Of a stretch of DNA of 64,000 bases, positions 30,216 to 55,901 are shown in pieces. The stretch is from an uncultured Caulobacterales bacterium. Its GTDB lineage: Bacteria; Pseudomonadota; Alphaproteobacteria; Caulobacterales; Caulobacteraceae. The stretch is taken from contig CAIOYC010000030.1 in assembly GCA_903862425.1 (NCBI GenBank), positions 62,001 to 126,000 on the forward strand. The letters run 5' to 3'. The position numbers and the translations under genes were made by a program. Every line of letters starts with the position of its first letter. Position 1 is the stretch's first letter. The notes under the pieces are model-generated. The model was not told the origin of the DNA. It saw only the letters and a list, made by a program, of their open reading frames with translations, and did not search any database.

Positions 30216-30862
30216 CCGGACCCCCCTGGATGACAGGATGGGCATGTTCGCTCGGCGAATCCACATCGACGCGCGAGCGGACGAAGGAGGCCAGCCGTGA
30301 CCCCGCCTATGTAGGCTTGAACGCCTACAGCATTGGCTTGCTCGCCGGCGGTGGCGACCCTAAAGTCCACAACGCAAAAACGCCCCAGGTTGCCCAGAGG
30401 CGCTTAAGCCTGTTCCCCAACAGGGTGGATCGCAGGCCTTGGGCCGCGCTCCGGAATGACGAGCGGCTTTTGCCTTATTGCGGCCTCATCCGGAACGTGA
30501 CGCACGGACGCAGGCGCCCAAGATGGGGCGAGCGACGAAATTCAACTCAGATCGTGCGCGTCGCGGAACGCTTCATCGGGTCAGGCCTTTTAAGAATGTT
30601 CGTCGCGAGACGGACCGCTGGCCCGGCGTTGACGCCCCCCCGATACCGCCGGGCCAGCCCCCTTATCCCCCGCTTGGCCCTTTGGCTTGTGCGAAAATCG
30701 CCCGCCCTTGATTTTTCTGCCTTTCGCGACTACATCGCGACCATCTCACACGCAGGTGTTCGGTGCGGCCGGGTCAATCCCCGGTCTTCGCCGTTCCGGT
30801 CCTGAGCCATCCAGCTCGGGGATTACCTGCGGAGGACGAACCGGAAGAAGGAACAAGGTTCA
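30216..30862. other. 647-bp intergenic region upstream of rpsB
   Basis: No credible protein gene. It contains several hairpins: TGTAGGC/GCCTACA (30310-30329), CCTGTT/AACAGG around 30410-30425 nested in a larger imperfect stem (about 30400-30452), and the rpsB-proximal stem below. It must hold the promoter of the long rpsB operon, and could encode a small RNA; none is recognised. Confidence 0.5.
30776..30824 (+). promoter_or_regulatory. Hairpin in rpsB leader
   Basis: AATCCCCG (30776-30783) pairs with CGGGGATT (30817-30824), ending 38 bases before the rpsB ATG. A ribosomal-protein leader role (S2 autoregulation) is inferred from position only. Confidence 0.45.
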
Positions 30863-47547: not shown

Positions 47548-48852
47548 TCAGCGCTTTTCGACCGGAACGAACTGACGCGACGGGGCGCCGGTGTAGATCT
47601 GCCGCGGACGGCTGATCTTTTGCGACGGGTCGGAGATCATCTCGTTCCACTGAGCGATCCAGCCCACCGTGCGCGAGACCGCGAACAGCACGGTAAACAT
47701 GTCGGCCGGGAAGCCGAGGGCGTTCATGGTGATGCCCGAATAGAAGTCGACATTCGGATAGAGCTTGCGATCAATGAAGTACTGGTCGGAGAGGGCAATG
47801 CGCTCCAACTCCATGGCCACTTTCATCAGCGGATCGTCGTGCTTGCCGAAAGCATCCAAAACCTCGTGGGTCGTCTTTTGCATCACCTTGGCGCGGGGGT
47901 CATACGACTTGTAGACCCGGTGGCCAAAGCCCATCAGCTTCACACCGCTGTTTTTGTCCTTCACCTTCTCGATGAAGGCCGGGATGTTCTCGACCGTACC
48001 TATCTCCTTCAGCATGTTCAGCGCCGCCTCGTTGGCGCCGCCGTGCAACGGACCCCACAGGCAGGCGATGCCAGCGGCGATACAGGCGAAGGGATTGGCT
48101 TCGGACGAGCCAGCCTGGCGCACAGTGGAGGTAGAGGCGTTCTGCTCGTGGTCCGCCTGCAGGATCATCAGGTGGTTCATGGCTTTGATGGCCACCGGAT
48201 GGGGCTTGTAGTCCTCCGCCGGCACGGTGAAGCACATGCGCAGGAAGTTCTCTGCATAGCCGAACTCGTTGCGCGGATAGACAAAGGGCTGGCCGACCGA
48301 ATACTTGAACGCCTGGGCGGCGATGGTCGGCATCTTCGCTATCATGCGGTGGGCGCTGATCTCGCGCTGCTTCGGATCATGGATGTTGGTGCTGTCGTGA
48401 TAGAAGGCCGAAAGCGCGCCCACCGCGGCCACCATGACCGCCATGGGCGGCGCATCGCGACGGAAGCCCTGGAAAAAGCGGTGGAACTGGTCGTGCACCA
48501 TGGTGTGGTGGGTGATGGTGGTCTCGAACTCGGTCAACTCGGCGGCGTTCGGCAGTTCGCCGTTCAGCAGCAGGTAGCAGACCTCCAGGAAGCTGCAGTT
48601 CTCGGCCAGCTGATCGATGGGATAGCCACGATAGAGCAAGATGCCCTGGTCGCCGTCGATATAGGTGATCTGGCTTTCGCAGCTCGCCGTCGAGGTGAAG
48701 CCAGGGTCGTAAGTGAAGGTATCCGTCTCGGCGTACATCTTCCGGATATCCACCACATCGGGACCGACCGAGCCCTTGAGCACGGGCAGTTCGACCGATT
48801 TGCCGTTCACGGTCAGCGTGGCGGTACCGCCCTTGACGACCTTATTCTCCAT
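47548..48852 (-). CDS. gltA: Citrate synthase
   Basis: 434 aa type II (hexameric) citrate synthase, TCA-cycle entry. Catalytic residues: His in [13 protein letters not shown], His in [12 protein letters not shown] and Asp in PNVDFYSGI. The start MENKVVKGG at 48852 (or ATG 48855) follows GAAGGG. Upstream gltX is on the same strand 72 bp away. Confidence 0.97.
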
Positions 48853-53282: not shown

Positions 53283-53311
53283 GTTCTGTAAGTGTTCCGG
53301 GTTAATGTCAA
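53283..53311 (-). promoter_or_regulatory. lexA promoter: -35 TTGACA and SOS box
   Basis: SOS box GTTC-TGTAAGT-GTTC at 53283-53297 (plus-strand reading) matches the alphaproteobacterial LexA operator exactly. TTGACA is on the minus strand at 53311-53306, so the box covers the -10 region. A second half-match GTTC-N7-GTCC lies nearer the gene (53272-53258, minus). This implies autorepression. The -35 hexamer is within the transposon's target duplication. Confidence 0.85.
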
Positions 53312-53313
53312 GT
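53305..53313. repeat. Target-site duplication, lexA side
   Basis: ATGTCAAGT, identical to 55885-55893 on the other side of the transposon. IS1595-family elements usually duplicate about 8 bp; here 9 bp match. Confidence 0.9.
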
Positions 53314-53339
53314 GGCGATTATGCACTTGCCATACCAAG
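53314..53339 (+). repeat. Left terminal inverted repeat
   Basis: 26 bp starting GGCGATTATGCACTTGCC, exact reverse complement of 55859-55884. Confidence 0.95.
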
Positions 53340-53430
53340 CGAACGGAAATAAATCCATGACCGACGGGCCGGTATTTTACGAAAAAGTAAGAGAATCAAC
53401 GCGTCCCCGCCGTGGTATGGTGGGGGCGTT

Positions 53431-53628
53431 ATGAGCGCGCCAGATCAAATGGAGATTGAGCCAACACCCGCTATGATCGACGCGGGGGCATCGGCGTTGC
53501 TTTCTAGCTGCTATGCCAACGAATTTCGTCCAACCACGGCGGAGCAAGCCGTGCGGGAGGTCTGGGCGGCAATGGATCAGGCGTCACGCCAAGCTCAACA
53601 AGCAAAAGGCTGTGGGCGACCCAAGTAG
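53431..53628 (+). CDS. Transposon passenger: 65-aa protein
   Basis: Begins MSAPDQMEIEPTPAMIDAG and contains a helical TAEQAVREVWAAMDQA, a pattern seen in small phage and mobile-element proteins. GGTGGGGGCG precedes the ATG. Its 3' half overlaps the convergent HEPN-motif gene by 125 bp, so one of the two ends may be misjudged. No function recognised; a small partner protein for the adjacent gene is conceivable. Confidence 0.5.
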   Translation: MSAPDQMEIEPTPAMIDAGASALLSSCYANEFRPTTAEQAVREVWAAMDQASRQAQQAKGCGRPK

Positions 53629-54040
53629 CGTAGTGGGATTCAGATAGCATCTCGTCCAACTCCCCCAGACTGATAGCTTTAAGCTTCGATTGGGACCACG
53701 CGACAGCCCGATCCGGCGTGGCCGTTATAACGGCATGCGCCAGCATGTTCCGGTCGTTTCGGTAGTTTTCTGCGACATACACAAGCTCGATAACAAGCGT
53801 ATCCATCCCTTGGGGAAGATGCCCCCGCTTACGCCTTGCGTTGAGGAGATCGATTTTTCTCTTGAGGTCGATCACGTGGACCAAATCAGCGCCGTCTCGC
53901 GCGTCACTGATGCCCGATAGGCGCTGGATCAAATGGCCTATCTCATTGTCAATCATCGCCCAGTTAGCGATGATGGTCGCGATTTTTAGTCCCTGCTCAG
54001 GTGTGAGCCCAAATTCCCAGAGCGTCGGTGTAATGACCAC
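53504..54040 (-). CDS. Transposon passenger: helical protein with HEPN-type RNxxxH motif
   Basis: About 178 aa, predominantly helical. Contains YRNDRNMLAHA, in which RNMLAH fits the RNxxxH signature of HEPN RNases, after helices (IANWAMIDNEIGHLIQRL; DLKRKIDLLNARRK). The tail is proline-rich (DPLPPRPPARLAPPW). GTG 54040 has AGGAA about 9 bases upstream; the frame is open to 54175 with an ATG at 54109. Proteins of this shape occur as hypothetical genes on mobile elements. RNase or toxin/defence activity is inference from one motif. Confidence 0.55.
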   Translation of the reverse strand: MVITPTLWEFGLTPEQGLKIATIIANWAMIDNEIGHLIQRLSGISDARDGADLVHVIDLKRKIDLLNARRKRGHLPQGMDTLVIELVYVAENYRNDRNMLAHAVITATPDRAVAWSQSKLKAISLGELDEMLSESHYATWVAHSLLLVELGVTPDPLPPRPPARLAPPWLDEIRWHSS

Positions 54041-54214
54041 GAAGCTTATTCCTAATGATGAATCAGGCGCAGAGGACGCTAGGCGCCGCGACGAGATAAT
54101 CCGCCGCATGATCGCGACCCCTCCGCAACCTAAGCCGAGGGTTACTTGCGAGTCGATTCCCTCCAAGGGTGACAAAGCCGAGAAGTAGGCGCACCATCCG
54201 CGACGCTGCTTCTG

Positions 54215-54371
54215 GGTTTGATCACCCGGTCTCTAGCATTGCGCTGAACGTAGGTCCCCGCTTCGTCGGGCGGCCTGCCAATACAACACCTTCGGGGAAT
54301 ACGCAGGACGCGTCTTCCTACGTTCACGCGTGATCAACCGCCCGGCTTCGGACGGGCCTTGAACGTGGGGG
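54215..54371 (+). ncRNA. Structured RNA / riboswitch-like leader in the transposon
   Basis: Nested pairings: GGTTTGATCAC (54215-54225) with GTGATCAACC (54330-54339); TGAACGTAGG (54245-54254) with CCTACGTTCA (54317-54326); TCCCCG (54255-54260) with CGGGGA (54293-54298); then a GCCCG/CGGGC hairpin (54340-54357). CCTACGTTCA can instead pair with TGAACGTGGG (54360-54369), which overlaps the ribosome-binding site of the 151-aa gene (ATG 54376). Two exclusive folds are thus possible. No known riboswitch class recognised. Confidence 0.55.
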
Positions 54372-54375
54372 CTGT

Positions 54376-54831
54376 ATGCGTCGACTATTTCCTGTGGCGG
54401 GATTTCTGATCCTGTTCGCCATTGCGTGGCATTTGCTAACGCCGTCTCCAGAGACCAAGGCGGCTACAAACCATGCCGATGAGATCGCGCACTCGGTAGC
54501 GGCGTCCCTCCCTCCCGGAGCATCTGGCGCGACAGTGACCGTTGATGACAAAACCATCAGCAACAATACCTATTTCCTCACGATCAATTATCCACAGTCC
54601 TTCGACTGGAATACGGATGTCGTATTCGACAATGGAAAAACCGTGGTGCGGCGAGTGCTGGATAAGCTCATGGCTGACGGGAAACATCCGGCTGAGGATC
54701 GCACCATCATCCGCGCCTATTCCCAACAGGTGGGCGGCCGGGGTGAGGCGACCGGCGCGCCCATGGTGCATGTCTTCGGATACACCGAATATGACGCATC
54801 CTCAGACAGCATTCGCTGGGTGGATGACTAG
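54376..54831 (+). CDS. Transposon passenger: 151-aa secreted or membrane-anchored protein
   Basis: N-terminal hydrophobic segment (LFPVAGFLILFAIAWHLL) acts as a signal anchor or signal peptide, followed by a soluble domain of mixed alpha/beta character with DNGKTVVRRVLDKLMADGK and RTIIRAYSQQVGG. GGGGG is 4 bases before ATG 54376, partly within the alternative RNA pairing. Not recognised. It ends 45 bp before the convergent transposase stop. Confidence 0.65.
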   Translation: MRRLFPVAGFLILFAIAWHLLTPSPETKAATNHADEIAHSVAASLPPGASGATVTVDDKTISNNTYFLTINYPQSFDWNTDVVFDNGKTVVRRVLDKLMADGKHPAEDRTIIRAYSQQVGGRGEATGAPMVHVFGYTEYDASSDSIRWVDD

Positions 54832-54876
54832 CCCTTCGTCTTCCACCTAGATCGGCGTCGTTTGGCCCATGGCGGC

Positions 54877-55821
54877 TTAGGCGGCGGCTTTGAGGCCGTC
54901 AGTCCGCCGATAAGTCAGACGCTTGCCTACGGTGCCCGCAACCGCCGTACGGGCACGCATGGTATCGGTGATGCCCAGCGCAGTGCGGTTCGAGTATCGG
55001 AAGTCGAACTCGCGCATGTAGCGGTGCAGGTGTTGCTCGCCGCAGTGCTGATAGATGCCACGCATCCCGCGTTTGAAGATGGAGAAAAAGCCTTCAATCG
55101 TGTTCGTGTGGATCACGACGGGGGCGTATTTCACGTACTCGTCCTTGCCGTGGTTCACGACGCCGTGGGCTGAGAAGTTCCAGCCAACCGAGGTGTAGCG
55201 CGGAGCCTCATCGGTCATCAGATGGGCCTCCCGGCTCATATTGGCCTCAAGGATCGGCATAATGGTGGACAGCTTCAAATCTTTTACGACGGCAGATCGC
55301 GCACGGCCGGTGTTGCGCTCTACCAAGGTGACGATTTTCATCTTGTGACCAGCGCCGCCCTTCGCCTTGGCGCGTTCGCGCAGATTGCCGATGAAGGTTT
55401 CGTCCACTTCAACCGCGCCGCCATCATCACCCATCGGAGGATTGGCGTCGCCCTGGTTCATCGCCTCGCGGATACGATGCGCCATGAACCAGGCCGTGCG
55501 GTAAGAGCCAAATCCGAGCGAGCGGTAGAGCTGGTGCGCGCTCATGCCCTTCTTTGACGAGCAGAGCAGATGCGTTGCCAGCATCCACTTGTGCAGCGGG
55601 ATGTGCGATTTCTCATAGACGGTGCCCATCACAGCCGTGAAGGGCTTGCGGCAGTCCTTGCACTTGTAGAGGCCAGGACGCGTCGTGCGGCCTTGCATCA
55701 GCGTCGAGTTGCCGACCGTCCCACAGTGCGGGCAAACGCGACCTTCGGGCCAGCGAATCGCCTCGAAGTGAGCGCGGGCCTTTTCCTCGTCGTGGAAGAT
55801 GGGATCGGAAAGGGTCGTCAT
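54877..55821 (-). CDS. IS1595-family (ISXO2-like) transposase
   Basis: 314 aa, full length. N-terminal zinc ribbon (CPHCG...CKDCRKPF), helix-turn-helix region (MSAHQLYRSLGFGSYRTAWFM), and DDE-type catalytic core: VEVDETFIGN, MTDEAPRYT and HTNTIEGFFSIFKRGMRG, the ISXO2-like signature. It starts 38 bp from the right terminal repeat. No frameshift or truncation, so likely active. Confidence 0.95.
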   Translation of the reverse strand: MTTLSDPIFHDEEKARAHFEAIRWPEGRVCPHCGTVGNSTLMQGRTTRPGLYKCKDCRKPFTAVMGTVYEKSHIPLHKWMLATHLLCSSKKGMSAHQLYRSLGFGSYRTAWFMAHRIREAMNQGDANPPMGDDGGAVEVDETFIGNLRERAKAKGGAGHKMKIVTLVERNTGRARSAVVKDLKLSTIMPILEANMSREAHLMTDEAPRYTSVGWNFSAHGVVNHGKDEYVKYAPVVIHTNTIEGFFSIFKRGMRGIYQHCGEQHLHRYMREFDFRYSNRTALGITDTMRARTAVAGTVGKRLTYRRTDGLKAAA

Positions 55822-55858
55822 CGGGTCGTCTCCAGTGAGAAAACCCTACAGAATCAAT

Positions 55859-55884
55859 CTTGGTATGGCAAGTGCATAATCGCC
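55859..55884 (-). repeat. Right terminal inverted repeat
   Basis: 26 bp ending ...GTGCATAATCGCC, exact reverse complement of the left end. Confidence 0.95.
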
Positions 55885-55893
55885 ATGTCAAGT
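55885..55893. repeat. Target-site duplication, trpC side
   Basis: ATGTCAAGT, 8 bp from the trpC stop codon; matches 53305-53313. Confidence 0.9.
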
Positions 55894-55901
55894 GAACGCT
55901 G

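Follow-up and report, generated by a model that had tools for sequence, protein, structure and literature searches.

The window, by which I mean the whole 64,000-nucleotide stretch of DNA that was analysed, carries an IS1595-family transposon of 2571 bp (53314-55884, no strand assigned). It is bounded by perfectly matching terminal inverted repeats of 26 bp (53314-53339 and 55859-55884), and outside these the direct repeat ATGTCAAGT stands on either side (53305-53313 and 55885-55893), a target duplication that reads as 9 bp, so that IS1595-type transposase, inverted repeats and target duplication are all present. The transposase, 314 aa long, is encoded on the reverse strand (54877-55821; DDE_Tnp_IS1595, 1.6e-32; NCBIfam transpos_IS1595, 5.3e-58), and its frame is open, as is that of a 151-aa cargo gene on the forward strand (54376-54831, ATG at 54376). 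The cargo protein has a hydrophobic N-terminus and no known domain: Pfam and NCBIfam gave no match, and the protein was not recognised as the antirepressor that a C4-type RNA controls. There was also no significant PDB match, and relatives of the protein were absent from the genome contigs searched and amounted to 2 weak ones in 385 genomes of the class. A further frame of 223 aa on the reverse strand (53504-54175), divergent from the RNA described below, had no match in Pfam or NCBIfam.

Upstream of the cargo gene and on the same strand lies a structured RNA element. A reading made from the letters alone (hereafter the sequence-only reading) had proposed that one strand of it, b' (CCTACGTTCA, 54317-54326), pairs either with an upstream strand, b1 (TGAACGTAGG, 54245-54254), or with a downstream strand, b2 (TGAACGTGGG, 54360-54369), that overlaps the 151-aa gene's ribosome-binding site. 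All three 10-mers were found exactly at these positions, the overlap of b2 with the ribosome-binding site was confirmed, and b' pairs equally well with both partners, the predicted energies of the isolated helices being -14.3 kcal/mol for b1:b' and -14.0 kcal/mol for b':b2. A third helix, an outer stem and a match to the sRNA-Xcc1 family (see below) go beyond that description. The third helix joins a1 (TTGATCAC, 54218-54225) to a second antisense strand, a' (GTGATCAA, 54330-54337), while the outer stem P3 (54265-54273/54338-54346) closes a predicted mature sRNA-Xcc1-like RNA (54265-54346). Inside P3 lie hairpin P4 (54274-54307), whose conserved core AATACAACACC...GGGGAATA has invariant columns among relatives, and hairpin P5 (54308-54331), which displays b' in its loop both in the predicted fold and in the alignment of relatives. 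An alternative 3' hairpin, Pt (54340-54357, GCCCG/CGGGC, -10.5 kcal/mol), competes with P3.

Folding of 54265-54350 in isolation predicted P3, P4 and P5 at -32.1 kcal/mol, and since P3 crosses both a1:a' and b1:b', the precursor would be a pseudoknot if all helices coexist. The b1-b'-b2 arrangement occurred once in the real 64 kb against a mean of 0.1 in 20 dinucleotide shuffles, and the folding energy of the segment alone was not unusual (z -0.67). The evidence from the window by itself is modest; the case rests on the relatives, which, judged by sequence comparison, make the pairing conclusive.

Loci resembling that of the window were termed type A, and 37 of them, all alphaproteobacterial, were aligned. 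The ON fold, made up of a1:a', b1:b', P3, P4 and P5, had 95.9% of its cells paired. Double-change cells numbered 131, where shuffles gave 34.6, the covariation score was 0.321 versus 0.159, and slid control structures reached 33-45% pairing over the same loci. Helix by helix, pairing stood at 97.3% for P3, 97.8% for P4 (compensatory change in 3 pairs), 93.3% for a1:a' (in 6 of 8 pairs) and 93.7% for b1:b' (in 7 of 10 pairs). The OFF fold, consisting of b':b2 and Pt, was 74% paired versus 70% when shuffled, with Pt weakly supported at 69.7%; its lower support on the alignment arises because b2 falls in a poorly aligned region. Co-variation conserves both of the mutually exclusive pairings that the sequence-only reading had placed around the ribosome-binding site of the passenger gene, and the homologues did not break both helices without compensation. 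The AATACAA..GGGGAATA core was highly conserved across relatives, an RCCA followed P3 in 21 of 39 type-A loci (background 0.044), and a TGnnATA -10 motif was present at -90 to -70 in 16 of 39 relatives.

The partners were also assayed in an alignment-free, own-versus-swapped manner, in which each loop region was set, by contiguous matching, against the flanking DNA of its own locus, upstream and downstream, and against the flanks of every other locus. A gapped RNAduplex version of this test was dominated by GC-rich stems and was replaced by contiguous matching for that reason. Own partners fitted far better than swapped ones. For 41 type-A loci the z values, which here and below overstate the evidence as loci of related organisms are not fully independent, were 14.6 upstream and 4.4 downstream; the other, non-type-A members gave 12.3 and 8.4. 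Split by site, type A yielded z 11.6 for a1, 14.4 for b1 and 4.2 for b2, a b2 signal weaker than that of phage members partly because the type-A loop is conserved. A second downstream strand, a2, which would complete the bipartite target known from C4, was absent from type A, the window included (a' against downstream DNA, z 1.4). The gamma/beta loci (L056-L084, a label taken from the phylum-level search) showed z 12.8 for a1, 4.9 for a2, 7.6 for b1 and 10.3 for b2. In an independent set of 88 unique viral loci from IMG/VR contigs the values were 10.4, 12.8, 17.1 and 19.6, respectively, with 0 of 5000 permutations reaching the observed ones. The address sequences clearly differ from locus to locus. 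In a small type-B group, located before HTH genes, a1 and b1 were detected and b2 was not by this measure; for members L006, L012, L013, L021 and L025, which lie upstream of small HTH genes, the ribosome-binding region (GGGGTTAG) appears to be the complement of the a'/P3' strand (CTAACTCCCC) and not of b'.

A permissive Rfam scan over 2.6 kb returned one match, to sRNA-Xcc1 (RF02221) at 54265-54354, with 39.1 bits and E 1e-4. This is below the gathering cut-off of 53 bits, and going by its sequence the window element is a divergent, sub-threshold match to the family; close alphaproteobacterial relatives scored 28-41 bits, and gamma/beta members up to 83. The window copy has the outer stem, P4 with the AAUACAA.ACC/GGGGAAU core and the P5 hairpin, and shares with sRNA-Xcc1 a transposon, plasmid or integron context. 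RF02221 covers the 87-nt mature part alone and belongs to no clan, whereas the loci described here add the partners a1, b1 and b2, without which the family has been described. Relatives were detected in 21 of 199 genomes of the family, 47 of 385 of the class and 58 of 398 of the phylum, and the window's own genome holds a single copy. A DNA pattern of the conserved core retrieved 51 stretches in named genomes, most of them real members from alphaproteobacteria; nine were excluded by eye, eight as spurious pattern matches and one (L095) as atypical. An integron attC reading of the element was considered by eye and dropped. Three genomes (G291, G487 and G834) contained about ten sRNA-Xcc1-like copies each, two of them being small genomes (1.4-1.6 Mb) of the window's class. 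Elsewhere in the window, an Rfam rpsB sRNA match at 30747-30858 (forward strand) scored 40.1 bits against a gathering cut-off of 40.

The genes downstream of the relatives were informative. Among 72 downstream proteins on viral contigs, the families that led were P22_AR_C (17), Bro-N (15), AntA (13), Rha (12), KilA-N (12), P22_AR_N (6) and ORF6N (6), all of them antirepressor-type and some proteins matching more than one; judged by domain matches, the downstream gene is mostly an antirepressor in viral relatives. Antirepressor families recurred at genomic loci, together with SymE (2) and HTH regulators. Type-A cargo differs: 23 of 39 had a hydrophobic N-terminus, one cargo protein (L003:1637-2116) carries the superinfection-immunity domain PF14373 (2.4e-19), and the rest of the type-A cargo often resembles lipoproteins. 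An IS1595-type transposase was found near 8 distinct type-A loci, including the window.

This layout matches that of the C4 system of phage P1, in which an antisense RNA silences an antirepressor. The P1 locus has promoter, a1, b1, C4 RNA (preceded by a hairpin and containing b' and a'), a2, b2 and icd/ant in the same order; in record AF234172 these correspond to a1 48255-48261, b1 48269-48276, C4 48343-48419, a2 48423-48429, b2 48452-48459 and icd at 48470. C4 of P1/P7 (RF01695; c4-a1b1, RF03163) and sRNA-Xcc1 loci share a1 followed by b1, an outer stem with an RCC(A)-like 3' end, two hairpins of which the second displays b' in its loop, a' on the strand that comes next, b2 at the ribosome-binding site and antirepressor genes downstream of relatives; phage and gamma/beta members further share a hairpin with a T run after b1. 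In the window, the loop is antisense to the ribosome-binding region of the gene that follows on that strand, and upstream a1 and b1 copies are present. Type A, by comparison with C4, lacks a2 and the T-run hairpin, has Pt as an additional hairpin and carries cargo other than antirepressors, and the first hairpin of C4 lacks the AATACAA..GGGGAATA core conserved in sRNA-Xcc1 members.

A covariance model of the sRNA-Xcc1 leader (a1, b1, hairpin, T run) had its sole match in 50 kb of P1 at 48251-48316 (E 0.004). RF02221 gave no match to the C4 of P1 with the threshold relaxed to E 10, a result that does not support common descent of the mature RNAs; at E 5 the Rfam C4 model RF01695 likewise matched nothing in 53300-55900. 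RNase P takes C4 as a substrate and cuts it at the 5' side of the outer stem, b' covers the ribosome-binding site partly, and a' confers specificity (PMC5320573). RNase P cleavage of a pseudoknot substrate was shown to depend on an RCCA end (PMC12710915). The gene order of P1, the leader match and the RCCA enrichment together argue that sRNA-Xcc1-type loci work like C4 and that the window carries a transposon-borne variant. The RNAs isrK (RF01394) and c4-2 (RF02944) likewise control prophage antirepressors, and neither of their models matched the window element. In P1, the a1/b1 leader of C4 is overlapped by the isrK model (L136, 48230-48311; 35.1 bits, below cut-off), an overlap in sequence which suggests that isrK may be the leader part of a C4-type system.

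I consider it probable that the IS1595-family transposon carries, in the window element, an antisense RNA unit of the C4 type that represses translation of the cargo. In this scheme I infer that the unit is transcribed, that it matures by an RNase P-type cut, that it represses and can act in trans, and that a physiological trigger exists. A transcript would begin upstream of a1 and b1 and extend through both, into the structured RNA and on through the cargo gene; from it the structured stretch, 54265 to about 54350, would be excised or stabilised as an sRNA closed by P3, with the P5 loop displaying b' and the joining strand carrying a'. Pairing of b' with b2 would hide the cargo gene's ribosome-binding site and keep the gene off, acting in cis and probably also in trans. 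In the precursor, b':b1 and a':a1 would form a competing state that leaves b2 free, the upstream copy acting as an internal competitor.

A rival reading is a translational switch acting purely in cis, a riboswitch or attenuator without a free sRNA, whose 5' UTR would flip between a1/b1/P3 pairing, with the ribosome-binding site free, and b':b2 plus Pt, with the site hidden, in response to a ligand, a protein or co-transcriptional timing. The near-equal energies of the two b' helices, the hairpin Pt that type A has in addition between b' and b2, and the strongly conserved core would suit such a switch, which nevertheless seems somewhat unlikely: sRNA-Xcc1 exists as a discrete 88-nt RNA (PMC2996969), phage homologues come, as is typical of C4, with a two-part target (a2 and b2) and antirepressor genes, and one metabolite signal could not serve so diverse a set of downstream genes. 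The element had no Rfam riboswitch match. The sequence-only reading had called it riboswitch-like, of which the two exclusive folds stand; the name is better replaced, as the C4 layout, the antirepressor neighbours of relatives and the shared leader fit better. No ligand domain is implied and the term riboswitch is neither needed nor the best name.

Another reading, which I hold unlikely, is that the window copy was once functional and has since lost its promoter and maturation signals. It has no TGnnATA motif and no RCCA after P3 and is alone in its genome, but a1, b1, b2 and P3 are intact, both the 151-aa and the transposase frames are open, and the terminal repeats are perfect. Given the missing a2, RCCA and TGnnATA motif, the window copy may be weakly active or decayed. 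The published view, that of a trans-acting virulence or regulatory sRNA under HrpG/HrpX control with many predicted chromosomal targets (PMC2996969, PMC12189769 and PMC12444791), would make the adjoining gene incidental; I regard this as improbable here, as the loop varies by locus and tracks the ribosome-binding region of its own neighbour, so that the target should be local. The idea that GC-rich DNA produced the inverted and direct repeats by chance, to which the single arrangement per 64 kb (0.1 expected) and the ordinary fold z might point, is contradicted by all comparative tests, refuted by co-variation and can safely be dismissed.

In Xanthomonas, RACE and Northern blotting defined sRNA-Xcc1 as a new sRNA of 88 nt (PMC2996969), and its expression as a discrete small RNA is known there and in Xylella (PMC12189769). 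Within the literature searched, PMC12189769 alone names both sRNA-Xcc1 and C4 antisense RNA, apparently as separate annotations, and a C4-like reading of the family appears to be unreported. The family is widespread and often listed as virulence-linked with a mechanism so far missing; the C4 layout offers a testable one, links sRNA-Xcc1 to the logic by which P1 controls lysis versus lysogeny and, on these data, predicts for most members a specific local target that is readable from sequence. More tentatively, the whole sRNA-Xcc1 family could form a third class of prophage immunity RNA of the C4 type, either independent or very diverged, which alphaproteobacterial IS1595 transposons took over as a portable silencing module. 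Cargo genes for small membrane or secreted proteins, one of them with a superinfection-immunity domain, would stay off in the carrier and come on when the element enters a naive cell. On the present data the C4 logic has moved into transposons and, from published context, into symE-bearing integron cassettes, where silencing of cargo could be its role; sRNA-Xcc1 has been reported beside symE in such cassettes, with a 'divergent regulatory mechanism' left open (PMC12444791). Two symE genes in the present set (L056 and L075) have a1/b1 and the RNA upstream as well as downstream copies of the target sites, a layout that may be an alternative to the control of SymE by SymR in E. coli.
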